Shown in pieces: positions 4,893 through 22,986 of a stretch of DNA of 58,032 bases. The position numbers and the translations under genes are program-made. Position 1 is the first letter of the stretch, and each line of letters starts with the position of its first letter. The notes below the pieces were generated by a model, which was given only the letters and a program-made list of their open reading frames with translations, was not told where the DNA came from and did not search any database. Source of the stretch: Candidatus Zixiibacteriota bacterium (GTDB taxonomy: Bacteria; Zixibacteria; MSB-5A5; GN15; FEB-12); NCBI GenBank assembly GCA_034439475.1, contig JAWXAN010000016.1, positions 1-58,032 of the forward strand, read 5' to 3'.

Positions 4893-4965
4893 TGGAGATG
4901 ACCGGGATCGAACCGGTGACCTACGGCTTGCAAAGCCGCCGCTCTCCCAACTGAGCTACATCCCC
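4893..4965 (-). tRNA. tRNA-Ala (TGC)
   Basis: A full cloverleaf can be folded: acceptor GGGGATG/CATCTCC, anticodon loop centred on TGC, T-arm with GTTCGATC, discriminator A. The 3' CCA is not encoded. It lies in the usual 16S-Ile-Ala-23S order. Confidence 0.95.
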
Positions 4966-4975
4966 GAAATCTTAC

Positions 4976-5049
4976 TGGGCCTAAGTGGAGTTGAACCACT
5001 GACCTCGCGCTTATCAGGCGCGCGCTCTAACCAACTGAGCTATAGGCCC
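4976..5049 (-). tRNA. tRNA-Ile (GAT)
   Basis: The acceptor stem GGGCCTA/TAGGCCC is perfect, the anticodon is GAT and the discriminator is A. It lies between 16S and tRNA-Ala, 10 bases from the latter. The 3' CCA is not encoded. Confidence 0.95.
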
Positions 5050-7154: not shown

Positions 7155-7250
7155 GTCATCTCTTAATATTTATTTTATTGCCAATTCCCCGCTTCGGCGT
7201 GTGACGGAGCTAAACAAACGTGTCCAACAAAGCACATTTCAAAAATTATC

Positions 7251-7278
7251 TTGTCAATCCGGCCTTTGTTTGTATATT
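7251..7278 (+). promoter_or_regulatory. Promoter for the secreted protein at 7451
   Basis: TTGTCA and TATATT are separated by 16 bases. The predicted start of transcription gives a leader of about 165 bases before the ATG. I see no riboswitch fold in that leader. Confidence 0.6.
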
Positions 7279-7450
7279 GGTTCCACAGACTTCTTGGACA
7301 CGCTTAAATAGCAATTGGTCGGCCTGTGGCATAATATTGATCTCATAATTGCCCATCCCGATGAGTTACAGCGCACGTAAAGGAAATTGAAATCGTAATT
7401 ACCATCGAATCTACACGTTTTTTGCATCCACAAAACACAGGAGGAAACCG

Positions 7451-9013
7451 ATGACTCTCTCTAATGTCCACATCCCCAAAGGGATAAGCAAAACGCTGAC
7501 GGGACTGCTCTGCGCAGTATTGTTAAATGGAGTAATTCTGAACACAGCTTTTGCTGTGACTCCTTCGACTCCGCACCTTGTCAATTACCAGGGTAGATTG
7601 ACCGATGCCGGCGGGATAGTTGTCCCCAATGGTCCTCAAACCGTCACGTTTAGAGTCTGGAACGATGCGGTTGCCTCGGCCCCAGCAAATCTGATATGGA
7701 ACAGCGGAGCCGTGAGTGTGACTACAACAAGTGGCCTCTTCACTGTCGCGCTTGGCCAAACTCCCATGGCTCCTATCGACCCAACCGATTTTCTCGATTC
7801 CAGTCGATGGTTAGGGATAACGGTCGGCGCTGATCCGGAGATTTCCCCCTGTAGTAAGTTAACTTCTGTTCCGTATGCCTGGACTGCTTCATCGGCGTAT
7901 TCAGCCATCGAAGCTGGAACGGCAATATTCGCACCAGACTATCTGCCCTTGTCTGGCGGGGCAATGACAGGAAACACCAGCCATCTGGATGCAAGTAGCC
8001 AGTGGCAATTTTCTGCTCAGCCGTGGATGGAAATAAATCCCGGGATTCAATTTTGCGTCGGATATGGCTCCGACGGATTGGAGCAATTCCGCATTTGGGG
8101 TTCGACTTGGGGAGAACTCATATTGAACGATTTATCCGGCAACAATACCACTGCCTATCTTTCGGCAAACTTGGACGGCGGCGGATTGCTTGAGCTCAAT
8201 AAAGAAACCGGGAGTCCCGGGATGCGATTTTCCGGAGGTACTACATCAACAGCTTCGACTCTCACTATGAGAAATTCCGCTGGAACAGTCTCTGCCTCAA
8301 TTGATGCTGGATTAACTGGGAATGGAGCCGTTCTTCTGCCATCAAGCTCGATAAGCGCAGGGGAAATGTTTGATGAGCCGGGTGTAGCTAATACAGTGAC
8401 GAGTTTCTCTTTCCCCTTTGCCGCGATCAGTTCGTACACGCTTGACTCAGTGGATATCACTATCCCAGCAGCGGGGTATGTGGAGGTCACGGCGGGCGGC
8501 TACGTAGTCCTTAGTCACGTCATCGGAACATACACAGAAGTATATTTCACAGTAGATAAAACAGCCAGCAACGCCGCCTTTGGCATTCCGGGTTCAAGTG
8601 TCCATCGCGTAGGGAGTGCTTCGCCGACGGACGGGTCCATTGAACCGATTTCATGTGCACGCCTCTTTTCAGAAGGGGCGGGGACGCATCGATACTACTA
8701 CAACGCCCGAAAGTCCTCGGGTCTTGGTACCCCGTCTGTTAATATACGCTGGATTCGCGCAAAGTATTTCCCGACCGCCTACGGGACAGTTGATCTGACC
8801 ATACCCGCGATCTCCCCTGTACCCGGCGATGCCGCGAATCCTTCGCTCGTATCTCTCGACCGTAAAGTCATTACTGTCGAGGAACACAACGCGCGAGTTG
8901 AAGCCGAACTTGCCGCACAACGGGCTGAGATAGGGGAGCGCATGGCGAAACTCGAAGCCGAAATGAAGGCAATGCGTGACCAACAAGCGCAGACTACGAG
9001 TCCCAAGCAGTAA
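7451..9013 (+). CDS. Secreted YQGRLTD-type protein with C-terminal coiled coil
   Basis: The 520-residue protein starts after a strong GGAGG site. It has a signal peptide of about 36 residues ending AFA, then NYQGRLTDAGG near residue 45. That motif is typical of a family of secreted bacterial proteins of unknown function with an Ig-like N-terminal domain. The middle is glycine-, serine- and threonine-rich beta sequence with a tail-fibre-like look, and residues about 485-515 form a charged heptad-type coiled coil (rich in Glu, Ala, Arg) that could trimerise the chain. It has no dockerin-like or YPNPFNP tail, unlike its neighbours. The gene is transcribed divergently from the rRNA operon from its own promoter. 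A surface adhesin or fibre role is inferred only from architecture. Confidence 0.8.
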   Translation: MTLSNVHIPKGISKTLTGLLCAVLLNGVILNTAFAVTPSTPHLVNYQGRLTDAGGIVVPNGPQTVTFRVWNDAVASAPANLIWNSGAVSVTTTSGLFTVALGQTPMAPIDPTDFLDSSRWLGITVGADPEISPCSKLTSVPYAWTASSAYSAIEAGTAIFAPDYLPLSGGAMTGNTSHLDASSQWQFSAQPWMEINPGIQFCVGYGSDGLEQFRIWGSTWGELILNDLSGNNTTAYLSANLDGGGLLELNKETGSPGMRFSGGTTSTASTLTMRNSAGTVSASIDAGLTGNGAVLLPSSSISAGEMFDEPGVANTVTSFSFPFAAISSYTLDSVDITIPAAGYVEVTAGGYVVLSHVIGTYTEVYFTVDKTASNAAFGIPGSSVHRVGSASPTDGSIEPISCARLFSEGAGTHRYYYNARKSSGLGTPSVNIRWIRAKYFPTAYGTVDLTIPAISPVPGDAANPSLVSLDRKVITVEEHNARVEAELAAQRAEIGERMAKLEAEMKAMRDQQAQTTSPKQ

Positions 9014-9118
9014 GTTGATATTTGTGAAAGGTTGTGCGAATAAATTTGTTGACGAAAGCCCAAAAAGGCATATTTATAAAGTATAATTCAGACTTTTCAG
9101 GATAAGGGAATTGAACCT

Positions 9119-9769
9119 ATGAGAAAAAGTATTATAAAAACACTGTTGCTTGGATGTTGCGCCTTACTGTTCGTAGGTACAGTCAATGGAGCAGACACCA
9201 AGAAATCAACATCCAAGCCAAAACCTGTTTCGGTTGTTGCGCCGGTGGAGTCATCGCCCCGAACTGGTTCGAGCACTTCAACTGCGGTCGCGCTGGTCCC
9301 TGTCACATCGACCCCACCTGTGACCGCTGTAGAAAACGGTTCTGGAACGCCTTCGATTTTCCGATCAGCGAGCCAAACAGGCGAACAGATAAAATGGCAG
9401 GTCATTTCAAGCGGCGGAAACCGCGGAACATCGCCAAGTTATATTCTGAGCAGCACAGTCGGACAGACGGCAGTCGGACCGAGCACATCGCCAAGCTTCA
9501 AACTCAATAGCGGCTTCTGGCAGAATTTCGGCCCGGCAAGCTGCTGTATAAACCTGACTGGGAATACCGATGGCAGTCTCGACGATCTTGTCGATATTTC
9601 TGACCTGACAGCATTAATCGATCATCTCTTTATAGCGCTCACTCCGCTGGCATGTGATCCCGAAGGGAACACCGACGGTTCGATTGATGGTCTGGTCGAT
9701 ATTTCGGATTTGACGAATATGATTGATCATCTTTTCATTTCGCTGGCTCCGACAGCAACCTGTATGTAG
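9119..9769 (+). CDS. Secreted protein with dockerin-like pair
   Basis: The 216-residue chain has a signal peptide of about 24 residues and a low-complexity Ser/Thr/Pro/Val linker to about residue 80. Next comes a short domain with SSTVGQTAVG and SGFWQNF, a pattern seen in secreted FCB-group proteins. From about residue 147 to 212 there are two copies of a dockerin-like unit of the form GNTDGS-x-VDISDLT-x-LIDHLFI. The acidic residues at spaced positions resemble the calcium loop of type I dockerins. A terminator follows at 9795. It is likely a small accessory protein bound to or displayed on the surface; no enzyme domain is visible. Confidence 0.8.
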   Translation: MRKSIIKTLLLGCCALLFVGTVNGADTKKSTSKPKPVSVVAPVESSPRTGSSTSTAVALVPVTSTPPVTAVENGSGTPSIFRSASQTGEQIKWQVISSGGNRGTSPSYILSSTVGQTAVGPSTSPSFKLNSGFWQNFGPASCCINLTGNTDGSLDDLVDISDLTALIDHLFIALTPLACDPEGNTDGSIDGLVDISDLTNMIDHLFISLAPTATCM

Positions 9770-9794
9770 AATTTCGTGTTAAATTATCGGATAT

Positions 9795-9830
9795 ACCGCA
9801 GGCTCAGCAAATGGCCTGCGGTTTTTTATT
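9795..9830 (+). terminator. Intrinsic terminator
   Basis: ACCGCAGGC (9795-9803) and GCCTGCGGT (9814-9822) form a perfect 9-bp stem with a 10-base loop, followed by TTTTTATT. It ends the transcript of the gene at 9119. Confidence 0.9.
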
Positions 9831-9887
9831 GAAGCTCTGATAAGGTGACGACAAGCAAAATTTAAGAGGATTCGCCAAATCTCGGTC

Positions 9888-9915
9888 TTGACGAATTGCT
9901 GAATTCAGGTATACT
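9888..9915 (+). promoter_or_regulatory. Promoter for the gene at 9974
   Basis: TTGACG (9888-9893) and TATACT (9910-9915) are spaced by 16 bases. The leader to the ATG is about 50 bases. Confidence 0.65.
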
Positions 9916-9973
9916 GTTCTGGATAGGTATGACGTTTCTATTGACACTCCTGCATTGAAGTTTTGCACAGAAG

Positions 9974-10774
9974 ATGTTTAGTTCAAGAATCATAGCTAAA
10001 ACGCTGATAGCTCTTGTATGCGTGTCCCTTGCGGTCTCGGGCCTTCTCTACGCAACAGCGGCAAATCCTCCCAACGGCCTTACCGGTGCGCCCGGTGAAA
10101 GCAGTTGCGGAATAGGACTGTGCCACGGCAATCTCAACACCGGGACTGGCGGTATTTTTTTTGTCTCATCCCCGAGATACCGTGCAGGCGATACATTGGA
10201 TATCGATCTCACCGTTGCGCACAGCGGCCAGCAGAGATGGGGTTTTGAAATGACTGTGCTTGATTCATTGGGAAGGCCCATCGGAACACTTCTGGCAACC
10301 GATACGATCAGGACCCAAAAATCCGTTTCAAATAATGGAAGGCAGTACCTCAAGCAAACATTCCACGGTACTGATATTGGGAAAAGCGACACCTCGTTTA
10401 GCTGGACTATGAAATGGGTCGCCCCTTCAACTCCAGCGGGAATAATTACATTTTACGCTGCGGGTAACGCCGCCAACGGTGATTCTATAAACTCAGGCGA
10501 TTACATTTACACGAAATCGTGGCAGGTGAAACCCGCCGGATGTTGTACTGGCTTTGCGGACAATGTCGACTGTGATGGGCAGGATGTTGTCGACGTAGCC
10601 GACCTGACAGCGCTTATGGATCATCTTTTTATCTCACTTACCGACCCCTGTTGTCTTGAAGAGGCGAATATGGATGGGAGTTTGGATCGTATAGTTGATA
10701 TCAGCGACCTCACGGCTCTCATAGATTTTCTTTTCATCACGACTAATCCATTGCCGGTCTGTAATGAACTGTGA
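9974..10774 (+). CDS. Choice-of-anchor V type secreted protein with dockerin-like pair
   Basis: The 266-residue protein has a signal peptide of about 28 residues, then GLTGAPGESSCGIGLCHG, the characteristic start of choice-of-anchor V (Reeler-like) domains. The usual form of this site is a CxxCH-like cytochrome signature; here the spacing is CxxxxCH. A beta-sandwich follows (about residues 50-185), including a GFEMTVLD segment typical of the family. Residues about 190-264 hold two dockerin-like repeats with VDVADLTALMDHLFISL and VDISDLTALIDFLFI. It has its own promoter and lies upstream of a related set of secreted proteins. Haem binding at the variant motif is possible but unproven. Confidence 0.82.
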   Translation: MFSSRIIAKTLIALVCVSLAVSGLLYATAANPPNGLTGAPGESSCGIGLCHGNLNTGTGGIFFVSSPRYRAGDTLDIDLTVAHSGQQRWGFEMTVLDSLGRPIGTLLATDTIRTQKSVSNNGRQYLKQTFHGTDIGKSDTSFSWTMKWVAPSTPAGIITFYAAGNAANGDSINSGDYIYTKSWQVKPAGCCTGFADNVDCDGQDVVDVADLTALMDHLFISLTDPCCLEEANMDGSLDRIVDISDLTALIDFLFITTNPLPVCNEL

Positions 10775-10923: not shown

Positions 10924-11068
10924 TATGAGGGTCGGGTGCGGTAATCTGTGCGGAGTTTAGTTATGGCTCCCACAATTTTCTTGCATCCGCCGTCTTTTGT
11001 CCTATCTTAAGAAGACTCATGGCAACTCAGGCTGGCCAATCTTTTTGATGTCGATGACAGGAGGCGTT

Positions 11069-12268
11069 ATGTTGAGCGGAGCTATCCAAAGTATCTTAGT
11101 CACAATCATCTGTGTGGGCGGGTCATTCTCACACGCCGCAAACTGCGACAGCACATCAAAAGGTTTCATTCCGCTTACCGAGCTTACCGGAACTTACAAA
11201 GGACAGCCTGGTGGGCTATACCCGGGGGGAATCAACCAGCCGCCAATTTGGCATCATAATAATGGCATATCGCTCGCACAAAGTTTTGTTCCGCTCAATA
11301 CCTCAGGTCTGCCAGATACGGTCAATGGATCATGGGTTCTGCTTTCAGTCGGCATGTCGAATACAACCCAGGAATTCAGCCGTTTTGTCCTGGACATGCA
11401 GGGGGATACAACGCGACATCCGCAACTTCGCATTGTTGACGGCGCACAGGGCGGTCAGACCGCAGCTAAAATTGTTTATGACACGGCTGCATTCTGGACC
11501 GTCATTAATAACAGACTCACCACTCAAGGCCTATCATCAAAACAGGTGCGAGCTGTCTGGCTTAAGGAGGCGAATGCAGGGCCCACTAATCCCTTCCCTG
11601 GGCATGCAATCTCTTTAAGGGATAATCTTCGCGATGTAGTGCGTCTTTTGAAGGTGAAATATCCCAATATCCTTCAGGTATTTGTCTCATCGCGAATCTA
11701 CGCCGGTTACGCGTCAACAACGCTCAATCCTGAACCTTTTTCGTATGAGGCCGGGTTTTCTTACCGCTGGCTCATCGAATCTCAGCTCACAGGAAACGAT
11801 TCTCTTAACTATCTCAGTGACTCAGGCGCGGTCAAAGCACCGTGGCTCGCTTGGGGCCCGTACTTATGGGCGGACGGGGTCATACCACGTCAGATCGACG
11901 GACTTACGTGGCTTTGTTCGGATCTCGTTTCTGATGGGACACATCCTTCAGACTCGGGGCGGGTAAAAGTTGCTTCGATGCTTGAAGAGTTTTTCAAAAC
12001 CTCACCATATACTGGCGCTTGGTTTTTGAAAGATTTTATCACGCCTTGTTGTCTTGCCGCGACAGGCAATGTCGACTGTGATCTTGGAGATGTCGCCGAT
12101 ATATCCGATCTGACCGCATTAATTGACAATCTCTTCATTTCCCTCTCTCCGTTGTGTTGTCCGAACGAAGCCAACACCGATGGAACAGGAGCGGTCGACA
12201 TTTCGGACCTGACGGCCCTAATCGACCATCTGTTTATTAGTTTGGCTTCAACGACAGACTGTCCTTAA
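11069..12268 (+). CDS. SGNH-hydrolase-like secreted protein with dockerin-like pair
   Basis: I choose the ATG at 11069 because it follows AGGAGG and is at once followed by a good signal peptide (about 24 residues ending SHAA). An in-frame ATG at 10997 would bury that signal. The 399-residue product shows GMSNTT near residue 92 (candidate nucleophile Ser), DGAQGGQTA near 122 and DGTHPS near 288 (Asp-x-x-His). These correspond to blocks I, II and V of SGNH/GDSL esterases. From about residue 328 two dockerin-like repeats follow with ADISDLTALIDNLFISL and VDISDLTALIDHLFISL. An extracellular esterase or carbohydrate deacetylase is a reasonable guess; the substrate is unknown. Confidence 0.75.
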   Translation: MLSGAIQSILVTIICVGGSFSHAANCDSTSKGFIPLTELTGTYKGQPGGLYPGGINQPPIWHHNNGISLAQSFVPLNTSGLPDTVNGSWVLLSVGMSNTTQEFSRFVLDMQGDTTRHPQLRIVDGAQGGQTAAKIVYDTAAFWTVINNRLTTQGLSSKQVRAVWLKEANAGPTNPFPGHAISLRDNLRDVVRLLKVKYPNILQVFVSSRIYAGYASTTLNPEPFSYEAGFSYRWLIESQLTGNDSLNYLSDSGAVKAPWLAWGPYLWADGVIPRQIDGLTWLCSDLVSDGTHPSDSGRVKVASMLEEFFKTSPYTGAWFLKDFITPCCLAATGNVDCDLGDVADISDLTALIDNLFISLSPLCCPNEANTDGTGAVDISDLTALIDHLFISLASTTDCP

Positions 12269-12359
12269 CTAATCCCGCCTCCGTTTATTTTTAATCGATT
12301 ATCGGGAGTGTTCGCTATATTACCTTCCGATTGGACTGTGCTTCGATGAAGGGATACTA

Positions 12360-12689
12360 ATGTTGCAAATATCCGACAAAGCTGGCGAAGAACTCAAGAA
12401 AGTGATGCTCTCTCCTCAGGGTAAGGGAAACAAACTCGTCATCTATTTTCAAGGACATGGCTGAGGCGGGCCGAGTCTTGGTCTGGCTCTGGATGAGTCA
12501 GTTGAAAGTTTAGAGCTGCTTGAGGATAAGGGTGTGACTGTCTATATCGAGCCGGGTCTCAAAGAATACCTTGAGCGGTTTGGCGGGGTAAATATCGACT
12601 ATGTTTCACGGGGAAGCACAACCGGCGGCTATCATGTTTCAGTGGGATCGGGGCCGTCCAATAAATCCAAAAGCGGTGACTGTGAATAG
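12360..12689 (+). CDS. HesB-like selenoprotein (UGA-encoded selenocysteine)
   Basis: Reading through one in-frame TGA (12462-12464) gives a continuous 109-residue protein. It starts at an ATG seven bases after GAAGG and ends at TAG. The residue at TGA is position 35 in GHGUGGPSLGLALDE. Known HesB-like selenoproteins have the same context, with U followed by GGP-x-LG and then LALDE, and cysteine homologues have C there. The rest fits the small HesB/IscA-like fold: N-terminal helix, beta strand KLVIYF, second strand VTVYIEPGL, and a Gly-rich C-terminus with one Cys near the end. A SECIS-like hairpin lies directly after the TGA. Standard gene calling would break the gene in two and miss it. The role is probably redox or metal handling, not established for the family. 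The selenium machinery (selA, selB, selC, selD) is not in the window. Confidence 0.88.
12471..12492 (+). promoter_or_regulatory. Bacterial SECIS-like hairpin
   Basis: Six bases after the TGA, CCGAGTC (12471-12477) pairs with GGCTCTGG (12485-12492), leaving one bulged T on the 3' arm. The apical loop is TTGGTCT. The loop contains GGTCT, as in the E. coli fdhF SECIS, whose loop G-U pair contacts SelB. The distance from UGA to the loop (13 bases) is close to that of known bacterial SECIS elements. The bulge position differs from fdhF, so function is inferred. Confidence 0.7.
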
Positions 12690-12784: not shown

Positions 12785-12795
12785 CTTCTCGTAAT

Positions 12796-12869
12796 GCCGG
12801 GGTAGCTCAGCTGGTTAGAGCACCTGCCTGTGGAGCAGGGGGTCGGCAGTTCGAACCTGCCCCTCGGTA
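12796..12869 (+). tRNA. tRNA-His (GTG)
   Basis: The cloverleaf folds well: acceptor GCCGGGG/CCTCGGT (with G-U pairs), D-arm GCTC/GAGC, anticodon stem CCTGC/GCAGG with loop CTGTGGA (anticodon GTG), T-arm GGCAG/CTGCC with TTCGAAC. Unusually, position -1 is T and the discriminator 73 is A, so the G-1:C73 pair normal in bacterial tRNA-His is not encoded. The CCA end is also not encoded. Confidence 0.92.
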
Positions 12870-13027
12870 TTAATTGATTTTCGAACGAAATCCTAAACCC
12901 GAATTCCGCCTCAGACACCACGAAGGACGCAAAAACTGCGCATAATATTAATTTCCTATTGGTTCGGGTTTAAGGCGTTCTTCTCCGGTAAACTTTGAAG
13001 CGAAAGCATCTTATGTGCAAAAAATCC

Positions 13028-13056: not shown

Positions 13057-13161
13057 AACAGGTACTAATTTTGATTCATTTTGACACGGATTACACTTCT
13101 ACAGCTCCCGCCAATTGACTTTTTTTGCGCTGGACATGAAAGGATACAGGAGAGGATGCTC

Positions 13162-15009
13162 ATGAGCGTTAAATTACGTCTGTTTTTTGCAATTCTTACA
13201 GTTTCTTCAACAATAGCGCTCGTGCCACGCAGCGGTTCGGCTGAAGACGCCTCAGACCAATCTGTTTCGCGCGCGGGAAACTGGTGTGGAACTCAGATCG
13301 TCTGGGATGAAAAAGCTCAACATAACCCAAACCTCCGGCAATCTGCCGCCTGTATATTACAAGGATCGTGTGATAACCCCGCGACACGTAATCTTTCTAT
13401 TCCCGACTCAACGAGCCCTATCGTTTATATCCGTCTGATGTTCCATGTTTTTGCCAACAGTGACGGAAGCGGGCAAACGGCATCTGCTACTGATGTCGCC
13501 AATGCCGTTACCTTTATCAATCAGGATTTCCTTCCCCGCCGCATTCAATTTGAATATAAAATGCGGGTAGTCAAATCCACCACCTATCGTTCTCTGAGCG
13601 AAGGTGAAATCTTCGGGATGAAAAATCTCTACGCCGTCAGTCCTGATTCACAATTGAATATTTATGTGCCTGACCCTGAGTTCTCATATTCGTTCGGCAC
13701 ATTTCCTTGGGATAGCGATGCTCTCGGTAAGCAGGGTGGTATTGTACTGCTTCACCCTGTGCACTTTCCGCCGATAGATAACGGAGGAACAATTTCCCAT
13801 GAGATCGGCCACTGTCTTGGATTATGGCATACTTTTCATGGTGTTGATGAAACTGAATCCTGCGGGCCGTGCTATGAGTTGGCAAACTCCCCCGACGGCG
13901 ATCTGACCGGAGATTTGTGTGAGGATACCCCCCCGACTCCGACGAACCAAGGCTCATGCGGAAATCCTGGCGGCACAGATTGTGGCGGGACTGCATGGGG
14001 TGCAACCCCCTTCCGCAACTATATGGGCTACGCACCTGCTAACTGTTATGATAATTTCACACCCCAACAGGCCGGTCGTATTCACTGCTGGACAAATACT
14101 GTCTTATCCGGATGGATAGCGAATGCCCGAGTTACGGCAGCTCCGACTTTTGGACCGTTGCCACTCGTTGTCGACTTTACCGGGTCGTCCTCTAAAACAG
14201 TGAGCCAATGGACATGGGCTTTCGGGGATGGTGACAGTTCAAACACTCAATCGCCTCAGCACACCTACACCACTGCCGGACGGCAGACTGTGTTATTGAA
14301 CATTGAGACACCGCAGGGCCCGTATACCAATACTGAAAAAGGATTGATTTGGATTCATGCCGATACCGTTGACGGCGCGGATGTTCTTGGAACTCCATCA
14401 CAAAAAATTAAGGTCGATATTTTTGCGAGAAATTATCTTCCACTCACATCGCTCACAATTCCGATAACGTGGTCAGGTCCATTCGCACTGCCTCTTGATT
14501 CGATCCGAACTACTGGTCTTCGCTCCTCTGCTATGGATGTCGACACACTCTTCACCGATCCGCCCACCAAGCGATTAGTATTGACCATGACCGCTTTAGG
14601 GACAGATTCGCTTGCTCCCGGAACAAGTCCAATCCTTAGCTTGTGGTTCCGTCTGCCTCCCTTTAATGTCGCAGGAGTAAATAATATCTCACTGAGTACC
14701 GTCGCTCTATGGAGCGCTCAGTTTACTGCAATACCTGGCTCGTATTCACCAGTCGTCTTTGGCGGCTCTGTCAGCATGTCCTGCTGTAAGGTCCGCGCTG
14801 GCAACGTCGACAACGACCCTTCTGATATAACAGACATTTCCGATATTACTGCTCTGATCGATCATCTCTTCATAAGCCTTGCTCCTTTGGCTTGTAAAGC
14901 AGAAGCAAACTGTGATGGCGATGGAGGCGGTTTGGTTGATATCTCAGACCTGACAGCGCTAATTGACAATCTCTTTATCTCACTGGCACAGCTGTCCGTC
15001 TGCCAGTAG
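13162..15009 (+). CDS. M43-type metalloprotease with PKD, cohesin-like and dockerin-like modules
   Basis: The ATG at 13162 is preferred: AGGAG lies 9 bases upstream and the chain then starts directly with a signal peptide (to about residue 27). Earlier in-frame starts add an unlikely N-terminal stretch. The 615-residue protein has HEIGHCLGLWH at about residues 213-223 (zinc ligands H213, H217, H223; catalytic E214) and FRNYMGY further on, the Met-turn region. This is the pattern of pappalysin-like M43 metzincins. A PKD domain follows (about 325-395, WAFGDGDSS). Next is a beta-rich module (about 400-540) whose alternating strands and LAPGTSPILSLWFRLP segment resemble a cohesin. Two dockerin-like repeats end the chain. 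It is the first of a tandem duplicate pair. It is likely an extracellular protease held in an assembly or at the surface. Confidence 0.85.
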   Translation: MSVKLRLFFAILTVSSTIALVPRSGSAEDASDQSVSRAGNWCGTQIVWDEKAQHNPNLRQSAACILQGSCDNPATRNLSIPDSTSPIVYIRLMFHVFANSDGSGQTASATDVANAVTFINQDFLPRRIQFEYKMRVVKSTTYRSLSEGEIFGMKNLYAVSPDSQLNIYVPDPEFSYSFGTFPWDSDALGKQGGIVLLHPVHFPPIDNGGTISHEIGHCLGLWHTFHGVDETESCGPCYELANSPDGDLTGDLCEDTPPTPTNQGSCGNPGGTDCGGTAWGATPFRNYMGYAPANCYDNFTPQQAGRIHCWTNTVLSGWIANARVTAAPTFGPLPLVVDFTGSSSKTVSQWTWAFGDGDSSNTQSPQHTYTTAGRQTVLLNIETPQGPYTNTEKGLIWIHADTVDGADVLGTPSQKIKVDIFARNYLPLTSLTIPITWSGPFALPLDSIRTTGLRSSAMDVDTLFTDPPTKRLVLTMTALGTDSLAPGTSPILSLWFRLPPFNVAGVNNISLSTVALWSAQFTAIPGSYSPVVFGGSVSMSCCKVRAGNVDNDPSDITDISDITALIDHLFISLAPLACKAEANCDGDGGGLVDISDLTALIDNLFISLAQLSVCQ

Positions 15010-15071: not shown

Positions 15072-16922
15072 ATGGTTGGTGTGGTAAATAGGACTTCTCT
15101 CCTGAAATTGATTCACAGTTCGATTCTTATATTTCTATTGGTAAGCTCGGCATCGCCTCAGAACAGAGTCGTCTCCGGCACACTTAAGACTGACTGGTGC
15201 GGAACTCCGGCTGTGAACGAAGCCATTATGAGTCGTCTCGACCGCTCGCCGAATGCCTGCCCACAAGACGGCATGTGCGATAATGCGCTGACCAGAAACG
15301 GCTATATACCCGGTGTCAATCCTCCGATATTAACCATTCGCATGTACATTCATGTTTTTCGAAATACCGATGGAACCAATGCTGCTGCCACAGCCGCTGA
15401 TGTGACCAATCAGATGAATCAGTTGAATTCGGATTTTTTGCCGTCAGGGATTCAGTTTGAATATGATTGGCGCTTTGTCAACTCGACGACCTATCGAAAT
15501 CTTACCAACGCTGAAGATAATCCGATGAAGAATACCTACGCCATTTCCCCCGATTCGCAGCTCAATGTCTTTGTGGTCTCGCTTGCCTCCCAGGGACTCC
15601 TCGGATACGCCTATCTTCCCTGGTCGCCCAACTCACTTCAGACAACTGGCGGTTGTGTTGTCACGGATGCAGCCAATGGCGGTTTCGGAGCCGGCCGTAA
15701 GACAATGACCCACGAGGTCGGACATAACCTTGGGCTGCACCATACCCAGCGCGGTGTGAGCGAGGTTAACGCGTGTGATGCATGCTACGAAAGCCCGGGC
15801 GCAGCCGATACGGATCTGACCGGCGATCTTTGCGCCGATACCCGCCCTACCCCGACTAATTTTAACTGCTCTGATCCTGCTGGTACGAGTCCATGCAATG
15901 GCGCAACTTGGGCGCCGAGTTCCTTCAGAAACTACATGGGATATGCAAGCGATGCTTGCTACACTAATTTCTCTCTCCAGCAGATGGGAAGAATGCGCTG
16001 CTGGATTCAGGACGCGCTCGCGACCTGGCTCTCGGGTGTAACATTTAGTTCGTCTCCGAATTTTGGTCCCGCGCCTCTCAGTGTAAATTTTGTCGGTCAG
16101 ACCGCGAAAGTGGTCTCACTTTGGGATTGGGATTTTGGCGATGAAAATGGATCAAGCGATCAATCACCGAACCACATCTATCAAACGCCCGGCTTGCGCG
16201 ATGTTTCAGTAACTATAACAACGGCATCGGGTAATTATAGCGCTGAACAGCCCGATTTGATCTACGTCCATGCCGATACGATCGATGCTGCCGAAGTTAC
16301 CGGAGGGCCTTCACAAAAGATTAAAGTAGACATAAGCGCGCAGAACTATATTCCTTTAGGCAATCTCATAGTACCAATCACCTGGTCTGGCCCGTTATCC
16401 CTTCCTCTTGATTCTATTCGGACGACAGGTCTTCGCTCCGCTCCTATGGATGTGGACACACTTTTCACCGATCCGGCGAACAAACGTTTAGTGCTCACTA
16501 TTTCAGGTATAGCGGGAGCCACCCTTGCGCCCGGAAGCGGTCCAATCCTTAGCTTGTGGTTTCGTCTGCCTCCTTTCAATTTGGCTGGAGTGAATAATAT
16601 TTCATTGAACACTGTCGCTCTGTGGAGCGTTCAATTTACCGCCCAACCTGGCTTATATTCCCCGGCTGTCTTTGGCGGCTCGGTCAGTATGTCCTGCTGT
16701 AAGGTCCGAACCGGTAATATTGATAATGACGCCTCTGATATTACCGATATTGCAGATATCACGGCCCTTATCGATCATCTCTTCATTAGCCTTACTCCTT
16801 TGGCTTGTAAAGCAGAAGCAAACTGTGATGGCGATGCAGGCGGAACAGTTGATATTGCCGATCTGACCCAGCTTATAGATCATCTCTTTATCACTCTGGC
16901 TCAACTGCCTCTCTGTCAGTAA
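15072..16922 (+). CDS. M43-type metalloprotease, tandem paralog
   Basis: The 616-residue chain has the same order of parts as the gene 62 bases upstream: signal peptide (about 1-28), M43 catalytic domain with HEVGHNLGLHH at 214-224 and FRNYMGY, PKD domain with WDFGDENGSS, cohesin-like module, and two dockerin-like repeats (ADITALIDHLFISL and ADLTQLIDHLFITL). The last 500 bases are nearly identical in long patches to the upstream copy, while the protease domains differ more, which suggests recent exchange in the tail. No terminator is visible between the two genes, so they are probably co-transcribed. The proteases may differ in specificity and share an attachment partner. Confidence 0.85.
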   Translation: MVGVVNRTSLLKLIHSSILIFLLVSSASPQNRVVSGTLKTDWCGTPAVNEAIMSRLDRSPNACPQDGMCDNALTRNGYIPGVNPPILTIRMYIHVFRNTDGTNAAATAADVTNQMNQLNSDFLPSGIQFEYDWRFVNSTTYRNLTNAEDNPMKNTYAISPDSQLNVFVVSLASQGLLGYAYLPWSPNSLQTTGGCVVTDAANGGFGAGRKTMTHEVGHNLGLHHTQRGVSEVNACDACYESPGAADTDLTGDLCADTRPTPTNFNCSDPAGTSPCNGATWAPSSFRNYMGYASDACYTNFSLQQMGRMRCWIQDALATWLSGVTFSSSPNFGPAPLSVNFVGQTAKVVSLWDWDFGDENGSSDQSPNHIYQTPGLRDVSVTITTASGNYSAEQPDLIYVHADTIDAAEVTGGPSQKIKVDISAQNYIPLGNLIVPITWSGPLSLPLDSIRTTGLRSAPMDVDTLFTDPANKRLVLTISGIAGATLAPGSGPILSLWFRLPPFNLAGVNNISLNTVALWSVQFTAQPGLYSPAVFGGSVSMSCCKVRTGNIDNDASDITDIADITALIDHLFISLTPLACKAEANCDGDAGGTVDIADLTQLIDHLFITLAQLPLCQ

Positions 16923-17095: not shown

Positions 17096-20000
17096 GTGAC
17101 ATTAAGAACCGTGGCCAGACACGCATTCAACAGTTCTGCCGTTCAAATTTTGTTAGGCGCAACCATTCTCAGTATTGTTGCTTCTGTTACTTCAGCTTCT
17201 GCGATAATTCCGGGACGGTTTATTGTTAAGGTAAAATCAGAAGCGTCCATCGGAAGAATCCGAAGCGCCCTTTCCACTGGCCAGGCGCTGAATTCAATAT
17301 CACGGCTCAATATCAAAAACACCATTAAAGGTCGCGATGCATGGAACAGATATCTGCTCCTCGAGACTGATGATTCGACGTTGACTAAAACTGGTGTTGT
17401 CTCAATTTTGGGCAGCGCCAATATCGAATTTGTCGAGCAGGATCGAACAATAGAGTTTTTTGATTATCCGACCGAACCGCTATTTGGAGAGCAATGGTAT
17501 TTGCACAACTCTGGTCAGACATACATGGGAATAAATCGACTGGCGGGAGACTTCAATGACCAAGTCGTGCTGAAATCAGGATTGGCCGGAATTGATGTCC
17601 GCAAAGAATCCTTGTACCAGACTCCTCCCGCAGAAAACACCAAAGTGGTGGTGGCTATTATTGATTCCGGGACCGACCTACTCCACCCGGAACTTCAGGG
17701 ACAGATGTGGAAAAATCCCGATGAGATCCCATACAATGGCGTTGACGATGACCACAATGGATTTATAGATGACACACTTGGATACGACGTGTCAGGAGAC
17801 ATCCAGACCTTCGGCAAGATCACTGGTGACAATAACCCTAGCGACATCGTGGGGCATGGGACCTATATTGCCGGTATTATTGCCGCACGTGGTGATAGCA
17901 CTGGAATTATAGGTGTTGCGCCTACTGCGCAAATTATGACTGTCAAGATTCGTCCCAACGCCACAAATGCGGTAGGGGCGGCAGGAATTATGTACGCCGT
18001 CAATGCCGGCGCTCAGGTCATCAATCTGAGTTGGGGAACCCCCTACGAGTCGCTCATTCTCCGCGAAGCAGTTTCCATCGCGCGGCAGAACGGCGTTTTT
18101 GTGGTCATTGCCGCTGGTAACAGCGGCTCCAATCAACGATTCTACCCGGCTGCCTTCGATTCTGCCTTTGCGGTTGGAGCGCTCGCATCAAACGGCTACA
18201 TGACGACATTTTCGACGTGGGGCGCGATAATTGATTTAGTCGCTCCCGGTCAGGACATTTTATCGCTTCGCGCCTCCGGAACGGACCTCTACTCAGCTAT
18301 CAATGAATCAGGTGTTCACATAATTGGGCCAGACTCGCTTTATTATCTCGCCGATGGAACATCAATGGCCGCGCCTCTTGTCGCAGGCGCGGCTGCCCTG
18401 CTACTTTCAATTCGGCCTGACCTTACGCTCAATGAACTCGAGACGATCCTCAGACTCGGAGCCACTGATATGGTCGACCCCCACAACACCAGCAAATTCT
18501 ATCCTGGACCGGACACGGTATCCGGTTACGGCATGTTGAATGTAGACAACGCCCTTGAACTCATTACGAGCGGCGGTATCTTCCTCACACAACCGATTTC
18601 AAACGTTAGATATACAGATAGTCTCTATATAAAAGGGTCTCAGTTTGCAGATTATACAGGGGGTTGGAAATTAGAATATGCTCTTGACGACACCGCATTC
18701 AATTGGCAGCTTATGGCGCAAGGCTCAAACTTTCCGACGAATTCAACGCTCTTTTTCCTCAATGATACTTCTTTGAGCGGAATCATGCACCTCCGTCTCT
18801 CAAATGATGTTGGCGGATCAAAGATTACGAGATTTACTTACGTCAATAGCTCCCACCTGCGAATTGAGTCGCCAGTCACGGGGAATGAATATAAATATTC
18901 GATTCCGATAATCGGCTCAGCATTTGGAAGAGATTACGACTCGGTTCAACTATTTTACTCATCGCCAACAGTTTCTCGAACCGCCATTTTTAGCTCTACC
19001 CGCGAATATTTTAATTCGCTCATCTACACATGGGACGTGTCTGGAGTTCCGGCCGATACCTATACCGTTCATTTGCACGGATACTACCAATCCCTGCTTG
19101 TTCGTGATAGCGTTCGGATAGTTATCACCTCGGCCTTTGCGGCGGGATGGCCGCAACAGATTACTGGGCATGGGGCACTGAGCGCGGTGAGCGCGGACCT
19201 TGATGGTGATCAGTACAAGGAGATCATCGTCGGCGCAACAAATGGACTCTTTGCCTTTCGCTTTGACGGACAACTCCTGCCCGGATTTCCCGTGATGCCT
19301 AATAATGATATGCGCTCGATTCCAGCCATTTACGATATTGATCGCGATGGGAGTCAGGAAATTATCTGCCTCAACGAGGACGGGATACTCAGCTTTGAGA
19401 TGGATGGTTCTATGACTTCAGGCTGGCCACAACCATGCGCGACCGGCCTAACATCCTATGGCTTTCCGCACCCGTCAATAGCAAGACTTGGGACATTTGA
19501 GGATTCGGCAATAATCACAATAAATGGCTCAGGACAGATACTTGCGTATGAATTCAACGGCGACCCGTATTTCTATTCTCTCGATGGATGGTTTGCGTCA
19601 TTCAATTCCGAACAGTCATTATCCTATATCTATGGTGGGAATTCTGTAAGCGCTGCGGATCTGGATGGCGACGGTCATAACGAAGTCATCGCTACTTACT
19701 CGACAAATGGCCCTTTAGCGGGAGTTGCAGTCTTTGAGGGACGAACAGGCCAGCCGGCATTTGACCGACCGCTACCGCAGGTTATCGAGATGAATATTTG
19801 TTATGGAACGGTAATGACAGATATCAATGGCGATAACCTGCCTGATATTGTCAGCTGTGGCGTCGATTCATTTGGAAATCGCATTGTCTATGCTAAAACG
19901 CACGGAGTGACTAACCTGCCTGGCTGGCCGATTATTCTTCCACAGGTGGCAGGATGGCGCGGTAGTTTTCCCACAGCGGCCGATTTGGATTTGGATGGCA

Positions 20001-20785
20001 GGCCGGAGATTATCCTTACGTTTTTTGAACTCGACGTCGGCGCGCTGTATATATTTAAGTCCGATGGAACACCGTATATTGAACGCGAAGGGCGGCCATA
20101 CGGAGAAGCCTACAGACTGCCTCTTACGTTCGGCACTCCGATAGTTGCCGATCTTACCGGAGACAGCCATCCGGAAATTGTGATACGATCCGGTTATATT
20201 TTCCCGGGTACTGGTACAGAAAAAGTACATATTCTTGATTTCACAATTTCACCAATTGCGGGATGGCCTGTTAGCACACCCGCCCCGCCTCTGCAGGTCT
20301 TTTCTACAATCTTCGCGCCGCTTGTCGATGATATTGATAATGATGGCCTTGTGGAACTTGTTCTTGTCAGCGAAACGGGCGCAATTTATATCTGGGATTT
20401 TGATGCTTCCTCCCGGGATGGAAAAAACAGCGGCAGGCTGTTCGCAGACAATCGGAACAGCGGTTTCATTCCCGCAGGACAGGTTGTCACAGATGTAGAA
20501 GAGCCCAATCCGCTTCTGCCGAAGAAATTTGAATTGTGGCAGAATTATCCAAATCCATTTAATCCGACCACAAGTATCGTCTTTGATCTGCCTACAAAGT
20601 CTAATGTAACACTTGAGATATTCAACGTACTCGGCCAGCAGGTAACGATTTTAATCGATAAGCAATTGACCGCCGGAAGGTACTCGGTACCCTTTGATGC
20701 ATCTGCGTATAGCTCAGGTTTCTATTTCTACACACTAAGCGCAGGTGATTTCACTGCATCAAGGAAGATGGTGTTTGTCAAATGA
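17096..20785 (+). CDS. Secreted subtilase (S8) with VCBS-type repeats and YPNPFNP tail
   Basis: The 1229-residue protein starts at GTG, three bases after GAGGTT. It has a signal peptide (to about residue 36), an inhibitor-like propeptide (about 37-125, RFIVKVK), and an S8 domain with catalytic D190 (AIIDSGT), H254 (GHGTYIAGI) and S423 (GTSMAAP). Insertions carry acidic DDDHNGFIDD loops, probably calcium sites. Two beta domains follow, then FG-GAP/VCBS-type propeller repeats from about 690 to 1110 (DLDGDQYKEI, DIDRDGSQEI, DLDGDGHNEV). The last 90 residues hold YPNPFNPTT and FNVLGQQV, the FlgD-like/type IX-like C-terminal sorting domain. It overlaps the next gene by four bases, so the two are translationally coupled. 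It is probably a cell-surface or released protease. Confidence 0.9.
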   Translation: MTLRTVARHAFNSSAVQILLGATILSIVASVTSASAIIPGRFIVKVKSEASIGRIRSALSTGQALNSISRLNIKNTIKGRDAWNRYLLLETDDSTLTKTGVVSILGSANIEFVEQDRTIEFFDYPTEPLFGEQWYLHNSGQTYMGINRLAGDFNDQVVLKSGLAGIDVRKESLYQTPPAENTKVVVAIIDSGTDLLHPELQGQMWKNPDEIPYNGVDDDHNGFIDDTLGYDVSGDIQTFGKITGDNNPSDIVGHGTYIAGIIAARGDSTGIIGVAPTAQIMTVKIRPNATNAVGAAGIMYAVNAGAQVINLSWGTPYESLILREAVSIARQNGVFVVIAAGNSGSNQRFYPAAFDSAFAVGALASNGYMTTFSTWGAIIDLVAPGQDILSLRASGTDLYSAINESGVHIIGPDSLYYLADGTSMAAPLVAGAAALLLSIRPDLTLNELETILRLGATDMVDPHNTSKFYPGPDTVSGYGMLNVDNALELITSGGIFLTQPISNVRYTDSLYIKGSQFADYTGGWKLEYALDDTAFNWQLMAQGSNFPTNSTLFFLNDTSLSGIMHLRLSNDVGGSKITRFTYVNSSHLRIESPVTGNEYKYSIPIIGSAFGRDYDSVQLFYSSPTVSRTAIFSSTREYFNSLIYTWDVSGVPADTYTVHLHGYYQSLLVRDSVRIVITSAFAAGWPQQITGHGALSAVSADLDGDQYKEIIVGATNGLFAFRFDGQLLPGFPVMPNNDMRSIPAIYDIDRDGSQEIICLNEDGILSFEMDGSMTSGWPQPCATGLTSYGFPHPSIARLGTFEDSAIITINGSGQILAYEFNGDPYFYSLDGWFASFNSEQSLSYIYGGNSVSAADLDGDGHNEVIATYSTNGPLAGVAVFEGRTGQPAFDRPLPQVIEMNICYGTVMTDINGDNLPDIVSCGVDSFGNRIVYAKTHGVTNLPGWPIILPQVAGWRGSFPTAADLDLDGRPEIILTFFELDVGALYIFKSDGTPYIEREGRPYGEAYRLPLTFGTPIVADLTGDSHPEIVIRSGYIFPGTGTEKVHILDFTISPIAGWPVSTPAPPLQVFSTIFAPLVDDIDNDGLVELVLVSETGAIYIWDFDASSRDGKNSGRLFADNRNSGFIPAGQVVTDVEEPNPLLPKKFELWQNYPNPFNPTTSIVFDLPTKSNVTLEIFNVLGQQVTILIDKQLTAGRYSVPFDASAYSSGFYFYTLSAGDFTASRKMVFVK

Positions 20786-22986
20786 GAAATGTACTTTTAA
20801 CCTTTCTCTTTGGCCTTGCCTTAGGTCAACCATTGTTCGCTGATATTCCCACCACTCCTGATCAGACACTGCTGTGGAATCATTTCAATTCTGTCACGAT
20901 CATCAAGAGGGGCTTAACGACTTTCGCACTGGCTACCTCTCGTGACGGAATCTCAGTGATGATAGAACGGGACTACAGCCCGGAGTTTTTTGCGATCAGA
21001 CATCTCTTTCTTTCCTCAGAACCGATCGAAGCCAAGTTGGACGGGAGTATTCTTGTGCTCCGAAGCTCAATTGATATTCTCTATTTTATTGACGTCTCCA
21101 ATCTGCCGGAGATTTATTTGATTGGCGAAGTCGATGTCGATGAGCCGTTCGAAGATTACCTCTTACACGGCAGAGACCTCTATCTCGCGCACGGATTCGA
21201 AGGATTATGGAGATATTCAGTCGATGACATAGCCAATCCTCAGTTTCTCGACTCAAGCATGCTTGGAATCCATTACACGCAGCTTGAACGAGTAGGCGAA
21301 ACGCTCTTTGCCCTCGATGATTACAATGGTATACTTTTGTATGATATCGCCGGATCGGGATTTGGGGATTTTTTAGATTATCTCTTCGTGCCGTTTCAAG
21401 TTTCCACATTTGCGGCGAACGCCGAATACATAATCGTCGGGACTCTCGCAAATTCTGTCCTCAAGTGCACATACACCAACAATGATCCCCAAATTCGAAG
21501 TACTGTTACTCTCACACATTCAGTTGACCAGCTGATGCTGTCAAATCAGTACGCGCTTGCTCTGCCGCGAGGCCAACCTCTTGCAACTCCAATTCAATTA
21601 AATGTCTTTGTGCCGAGTGTGATAGTTTTCGAGGAATCTTTTGACTCACGACTTAACGGCTTTACGCTATTCACCGATAATGTCACATTTCAGGACACTC
21701 GTGTTTACTTTCCTTCTGCAGGTGGAGGGATTATTTCACACAGCCTGGACACCTGGAGGCTGACTGATTCGCCTCTTCGTCACTATCGTCGCACCGGTCC
21801 AATCAATGATATTGTTATCGATGGTGACTACCTTTACACCGGAGGCACTGCAAATCCACTGGAAGTCTATCGTTTTTCCACAAGCGGAAAGGCAAATCGA
21901 GACACGGTCTTAAATGACGGAATAAATCACATCAAAGACATCGAGTCAGTCGGGGACACTGTCCTTGTTCTTTATCCTCAACTTGAGTCAATATTAGGAT
22001 ACCGTGTTGCCAGCGGTACGTTTCCCATCGTCACGCAGTTTCCGGCAGATTCTGTAGACATTGCCCGAGTAAAGTACCTCCCTCTCGATAATGACACCAT
22101 GCAGGCGTTGGTCACGATAGGCCAGGCTTCGGTAAATATCTTCTCACTCCAAGATACCCTCGCACCCGTTCTCAGGAAAAGAGTTACATTCATCGGAAGA
22201 GTGCTCGATGTTGAACTTGTCGATTCCTTGCTTGTGGTTTCCACGTCCAAAAAAGAATTGTGGGTCTACCGGCTTCTCAGCGATCTGAAGACAGAGTTCC
22301 GTTCGCGCATTCTCCTCTCCCAAATGGCAACTGATCTCATTGTTATTAAGAATCCCGTCAATGCCGGCGATTCTACGGCTGAGAGATTGTTCGCTCTCGG
22401 GGGATCAACCATACTTCGTTTTGATCTTACATTACCGTCGCAGGCAAGAGTCGACTCAACGCTCTTGCTCCCCTTTGATATAGTCAGTTCCGCAGTCACC
22501 TCAGACACGCTTTTCACAGTAGGCGCGTCAGGCATCGGAATGTTTGATATAAGCGGAGGAAACCCGGTGTTGATCGATTTTGGTGGACGGGGGGGAAGTA
22601 TGATCGCGGCCGGATCAGGGCGGGTCGCGGTATCCGACGGACGGGCTATCAATATATTTTTGCTAAATGCGAACGGCGCACAGGTCCCGGTCGAAGATAG
22701 CGGAGAATCTTCACCAGTTCTTCTTCAAAACTTCCCGAATCCGTTTAATCCTACCACTACCATATCCTTTAGCCTTTCGCATACATCAGCAGTCCGACTT
22801 TTTGTCTTAAATATACTGGGTCAGACAGTAGCGACACTGGTAGACGAACAGCGGCCAGCCGGCAGCAACTCTGCAACATGGGATGGCCGCTCAGACAGTG
22901 GAGAGCATGTTGCAAGCGGCCTGTATTTCTATAGACTCACCGTTGGAAATCTGCATGAATCACGCAAGATGCTTTTGATACGTTAA
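20782..22986 (+). CDS. Secreted beta-propeller protein with YPNPFNP-type tail
   Basis: The ATG overlaps the stop of the preceding subtilase (ATGA), so the gene is almost certainly in the same operon. The 734-residue chain has a signal peptide (about 1-20). It then carries many 40-50-residue beta repeats in which a strand such as ILYFIDVSNLPEI or LLYDI recurs, as in LVIVD-type propellers. No catalytic site is visible. The C-terminal 85 residues hold FPNPFNPTTTI, NILGQTVATL and GLYFYRL, the FlgD-like sorting tail shared with its neighbours. A binding or scaffolding partner for the coupled protease is a reasonable inference from gene order. Confidence 0.8.
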   Translation: MRNVLLTFLFGLALGQPLFADIPTTPDQTLLWNHFNSVTIIKRGLTTFALATSRDGISVMIERDYSPEFFAIRHLFLSSEPIEAKLDGSILVLRSSIDILYFIDVSNLPEIYLIGEVDVDEPFEDYLLHGRDLYLAHGFEGLWRYSVDDIANPQFLDSSMLGIHYTQLERVGETLFALDDYNGILLYDIAGSGFGDFLDYLFVPFQVSTFAANAEYIIVGTLANSVLKCTYTNNDPQIRSTVTLTHSVDQLMLSNQYALALPRGQPLATPIQLNVFVPSVIVFEESFDSRLNGFTLFTDNVTFQDTRVYFPSAGGGIISHSLDTWRLTDSPLRHYRRTGPINDIVIDGDYLYTGGTANPLEVYRFSTSGKANRDTVLNDGINHIKDIESVGDTVLVLYPQLESILGYRVASGTFPIVTQFPADSVDIARVKYLPLDNDTMQALVTIGQASVNIFSLQDTLAPVLRKRVTFIGRVLDVELVDSLLVVSTSKKELWVYRLLSDLKTEFRSRILLSQMATDLIVIKNPVNAGDSTAERLFALGGSTILRFDLTLPSQARVDSTLLLPFDIVSSAVTSDTLFTVGASGIGMFDISGGNPVLIDFGGRGGSMIAAGSGRVAVSDGRAINIFLLNANGAQVPVEDSGESSPVLLQNFPNPFNPTTTISFSLSHTSAVRLFVLNILGQTVATLVDEQRPAGSNSATWDGRSDSGEHVASGLYFYRLTVGNLHESRKMLLIR

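Follow-up and report, generated by a model that had tools for sequence, protein, structure and literature searches.

The window, the whole 58,032-nucleotide stretch of DNA that was analysed, carries at positions 12360-12689 (+) a coding sequence of 109 residues, which starts with ATG, ends with a TAG stop codon at 12687-12689 (+) and is interrupted by a single TGA, the frame being otherwise intact. From its translation, family match and homologues, the gene was assigned to the HesB-like selenoproteins, with the UGA at codon 35 read as selenocysteine (Sec). The in-frame TGA (12462-12464, +) lies in the motif GHG-U-GGPSLG; the translation thus contains U35-G-G-P38, a form of the UxGP motif listed for HesB-like selenoproteins (Table 1, PMC13188914). 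A Shine-Dalgarno-like AGGGA (12350-12354, +) is located 5 nt upstream of the ATG, and a similar motif precedes 69 of the 72 distinct copies found in the phylum. The frame with its single TGA, the ribosome site, the natural stop and the motif had all been proposed in the first-pass annotation and were confirmed. When TGA was counted as a stop, no ORF of at least 60 aa was called on the + strand across 12360-12689; standard gene calling would therefore yield fragments only, in line with the earlier expectation for ordinary annotation. A bacterial SECIS hairpin was predicted at 12483-12501 (+). The gene lies by itself, with a secreted-looking repeat protein upstream (ending at 12268) and tRNA-His (12795-12870) downstream. 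The Rfam scan of the locus gave no SECIS family match; its hits were confined to this tRNA-His and chance matches.

Several other features were observed in the window. Five secreted-looking proteins (9119-9769, 9974-10774, 10997-12268, 13081-15009, and 15072-16922) have dockerin-like repeats in common at the C-terminus (VDISDLTALIDHLFISL). The window contains 8 occurrences of a degenerate DNA pattern for the repeat core vs. 0.02 expected, and the Pfam scan of four of the five proteins revealed no dockerin match. Regions 13081-15009 and 15072-16922 lie side by side and encode M43 (pappalysin-type) metallopeptidases that resemble each other and carry PKD domains; the pair probably arose by tandem duplication. 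They are followed at 17096-20785 by a subtilase of 1229 aa that has FG-GAP repeats and ends of the Por_Secre_tail sorting type. At 4893-5049 (-), tRNA-Ala adjoins tRNA-Ile in an arrangement like that of an rRNA operon spacer.

Conservation of the gene and its internal TGA in the phylum

A homologue match was obtained in 86 of 132 genomes of the phylum, and a match with an internal TGA in 80 of 132; the other six genomes gave weak matches only (E 7.6e-5 or weaker), without a stop. Homologues that naturally end before the TGA had been named beforehand as evidence against a selenoprotein; instead, the 72 distinct copies, extended to their stop codons, run on to proteins of 101-124 residues. In the loci read, 74 phylum copies have an alignment that spans residue 35; the codon there is TGA in 70 of them and TGC in four. 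Two of the TGC loci (L051 and L057) overlap, leaving three distinct Cys copies, and each TGC copy lies in tandem with a TGA copy. In the alignment of 62 proteins (A1), in which U was read as C, column 35 is U or C throughout; A8, G32, G37, P38, G41, and G90 are invariant, and G34 and Cys108 are nearly so. The window copy has Ser (AGC) at codon 105 (12672-12674, +), a position at which at least 90% of the 62 homologues have Cys, the first of a C-terminal CxxC, and codon 108 (12681-12683, +) encodes its sole tail Cys.

The search for Cys homologues aligned at residue 35, proposed with the first-pass annotation, found Cys in the tandem paralogues, in solved IscA-type structures and in the distant IscA-type homologues L003 and L004. 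A scan of public genomes, aimed at close relatives, yielded just two distant IscA-type Cys homologues. In genomes G061, G062, and G082 (L024, L028, and L051/L057), and also in G063, HesB-like genes with Sec and with Cys lie in tandem or close together; the Sec and Cys copies within one genome are possibly selenium-responsive isoforms.

Two neighbours recur beside the phylum copies: a divergent gene in 20 loci, which judged by eye may encode a sugar-nucleotidyltransferase-like protein, and a downstream gene in 13 loci, which on the same basis may encode glutamate dehydrogenase. Neither was found beside the copy in the window, so its genomic context offers no functional clue.

SECIS hairpin and selenocysteine machinery

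The hairpin (CUGGCUC-UGGAU-GAGUCAG) has a 7-bp stem and a 5-nt loop and was identified by folding, codon freeze and compensatory changes. Its loop, UGGAU, begins 25 nt past the UGA and has G at the second position; the folding energy is -9.1 kcal/mol (z -3.8). Published descriptions of bacterial SECIS elements give an apical loop of 3-9 nt, a stem of 4-16 bp, a G within the first two loop positions, and a distance of 16-37 nt from the UGA (PMC13188914), and the window hairpin lies within all these limits. The conserved hairpin is an addition to the first-pass annotation.

In total, 69 distinct copies align gap-free after the TGA; counted from the T of this codon, the hairpin begins at 21 nt. 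Synonymous codon choice is frozen at codons 8, 9, 11, and 12 after the UGA: GCT in 50 of 51 Ala (vs. 19% in the rest of the genes), CTG in 68 of 69 Leu (vs. 31%), GAG in 67 of 68 Glu (vs. 31%), and TCA in 52 of 63 Ser (vs. 12%), with p-values that treat related sequences as independent and ignore shared ancestry. Over the seven pairs, pairing is kept in 85% of cells, compared with 18-52% when one side was slid by 1-3 bases. With the T of the TGA numbered 0, three of the pairs show exchanges that preserve pairing: C25-G35 to U-A (L067), U26-A34 to C-G (L025), and G24-U36 to A-U, G-C or U-A. The outermost pair is unconserved in most copies, and the sixth is conserved only partly. The hairpin lies within the minimum-energy fold of +15 to +45 in 68 of the 69 copies; the Cys paralogues are without the frozen codon set and have lost the hairpin.

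Folding energy against synonymous recoding is far less informative than codon freeze and pair preservation. After the UGA, its mean z across copies is only moderately low (-1.0), and that of the window copy is 0.12, i.e., not low. When the window copy was folded whole from the UGA, competing hairpins were favoured by 0.3-1 kcal/mol; the SECIS wins once the fold leaves out the bases immediately 3' of the UGA, where the ribosome would sit.

The presence of an internal TGA in 80 of the 132 genomes, the continuation of the protein beyond it and the frozen codons together indicate that the TGA is not due to chance. The window belongs to a contig of a draft assembly and TGA is one base away from the Cys codons TGT and TGC, as would suit a nonsense change or a sequencing error in an ordinary Cys-type HesB gene. 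Against such a pseudogene or error stand the conservation of the downstream protein in those 80 genomes, the synonymous codon freeze after the TGA and the full Sec machinery of the genome; the candidate was rejected on the independent TGA copies across many genera, and its probability is close to nil.

The genome assembly (2.66 Mb, 98.7% complete) encodes selA, selB, selD, and tRNA-Sec, all with scores over the cut-offs. On contig C22, selA is located at 9149-10486 (519 bits), selB at 7242-9098 (312 bits), and tRNA-Sec, with the anticodon TCA (UCA in RNA), at 21413-21505 (66.6 bits). On contig C4, selD occupies 17635-18561 (L019:1501-2427, -; 381 bits). The four genes had been named in advance as the ones to search for, and the absence of selenium genes as evidence against the reading; their presence supports the claim that the organism decodes UGA as Sec. 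The selD gene has a single in-frame TGA of its own, at residue 11 of the translated stretch, in the motif U-A-S-K, in agreement with the UxxK motif given for selenoprotein forms of SelD (PMC13188914); the SelD encoded here is thus a predicted selenoprotein too.

Across the phylum, selA scored over the cut-off in 69 of the 80 genomes with the TGA gene. Among the rest, some had an incomplete selA and others only tRNA-Sec; in five genomes with the TGA gene (G001, G054, G068, G094, and G097), all draft assemblies of 110-720 contigs, no strong selA match and no tRNA-Sec were found. Since nearly all genomes of the phylum match selA, its co-occurrence with the gene is non-discriminating.

Insertion of a standard residue such as Cys or Trp at the UGA, through a suppressor tRNA or an altered genetic code, would accord with the Cys found at position 35 in paralogues and distant homologues. 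We consider it very improbable, as the TCA-anticodon tRNA scores well above the tRNA-Sec cut-off, selA, selB and selD occur together in the genome, and the SECIS-type hairpin is kept in TGA copies and missing from Cys copies. Moreover, neither selA nor selB has a TGA within its frame, which makes a general reassignment of UGA unlikely.

Family assignment and predicted fold

The protein matched the NCBIfam models NF038090 (IscA_HesB_Se; E 1.2e-13) and TIGR01911 (HesB_rel_seleno; E 6.9e-12), in agreement with the HesB-like identity claimed earlier, with scores of 51.3 and 45.8 bits below the curated cut-offs of 85 and 66.35, respectively, which are annotation thresholds and not biological traits. 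The score for Pfam Fe-S_biosyn (22.7) was also below its cut-off (26.3). All 62 relatives match both NCBIfam models at E ≤ 0.001. The protein is filed as HesB-like by motif, SECIS and homology; it is uncertified for NF038090 and TIGR01911, since its scores fall below both curated cut-offs.

Eleven HesB-like selenoprotein genes were catalogued in 2006, with members in Geobacter, Desulfovibrio, and Symbiobacterium (PMC1794560), and a survey of 2016 counted 90 such proteins in 86 organisms (PMC5029168). Mutagenesis together with 75Se labelling revealed a HesB-like selenoprotein in Methanococcus maripaludis, and nitrogen fixation persisted in a disruption mutant, according to an unpublished observation quoted in the same paper (PMC11097638). 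The lineage of the window may be Zixibacteria, to judge by the secreted repeat proteins of that group. In the literature searched, a single paper combined Zixibacteria with selenoprotein or selenocysteine, and on this point it gives no more than the listing of a Zixibacteria genome bin. The window protein shares with the known HesB-like selenoproteins an IscA-type fold (predicted here) and Sec in UxGP, and, as in the bacterial members, the SECIS is located directly downstream. It differs in its scores below both curated cut-offs. The CxxC C-terminal tail is typical of the window's phylum (three tail cysteines in 63 of 72 copies, ending in this pattern), whereas the window copy (SGDCE, with one Cys) has Ser105 at the first Cys of the pattern.

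The AlphaFold2 model has a mean pLDDT of 83.6, with low confidence for the tail (98-109), and its nearest PDB structures are HI1723, IscA, SufA, and DsrR. DsrR of Allochromatium vinosum (2k4z), an IscA-fold protein, was at the top of the PDB search (TMq 0.71), the predicted fold being similar at 20% identity to the window protein. The predicted fold is the same as that of IscA, SufA, and ErpA (PF01521, TIGR00049), and in the profile alignment residue 35 falls on the first conserved Cys of the IscA-type proteins. However, Sec replaces Cys there, and the C-terminal CGC is absent: in the phylum, the CxxC tail takes its place, and the window copy keeps the last Cys only. The three-ligand set of IscA-type proteins (first Cys plus CGC) is thus incomplete, and the score is below the equivalog cut-offs.

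The shared fold and the position of Sec would suit a selenoprotein that does the same job as the housekeeping A-type carriers (IscA/ErpA/SufA), Sec then being one of its cluster ligands. In addition to the missing CGC (most relatives have a CxxC tail, this copy one Cys), the genome separately encodes a canonical carrier in which both GGCSG and CGC are present (C66:5822-6139), and no isc, suf or nif gene was recognised among the recurrent neighbours, whose sequences were judged by eye; a carrier role is therefore rather unlikely.

Putative function and significance

The window gene almost certainly encodes a bacterial selenoprotein of the HesB-like type, with an IscA fold. Computation supports the gene, the machinery, the SECIS and the fold. 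In the cell, Sec would be inserted at codon 35: the SECIS just 3' of the UGA would recruit SelB carrying selenocysteyl-tRNA(Sec) during translation, and the UGA would be decoded as selenocysteine, not as a stop. Residue 35 corresponds to the first of the cluster-ligand cysteines in IscA/SufA.

No function has been assigned to HesB-like selenoproteins in the selenoprotein surveys and the M. maripaludis literature. Judging from the predicted fold and the residues, there is about an even chance that Sec35 and the C-terminal Cys or cysteines form a metal- or Fe-S-binding site or a thiol-redox site in an accessory protein. This protein would be distinct from the separately encoded housekeeping A-type carrier. 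More tentatively, the proteins of the phylum might form a distinct subfamily of HesB-like selenoproteins, with Sec35 and the C-terminal CxxC acting together as a redox or metal-trafficking module and not as an Fe-S carrier, and with the Sec/Cys tandems of a few genomes perhaps selenium-switched, a proposal that we regard as rather doubtful.

The HesB-like type of selenoprotein was already known, and the window gene is a well-supported further case. Scoring below the curated cut-offs and having no ordinary ORF, the gene is probably missed by routine annotation in the phylum. HesB-like proteins count among the more frequent selenoproteins of bacteria (86 organisms, PMC5029168), and the present data indicate that they are widespread in one phylum, with the RNA signal intact. 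The approximately 70 sequences, with their tandem Sec/Cys pairs, provide a resource for testing the function of these proteins and the exchange between Sec and Cys.
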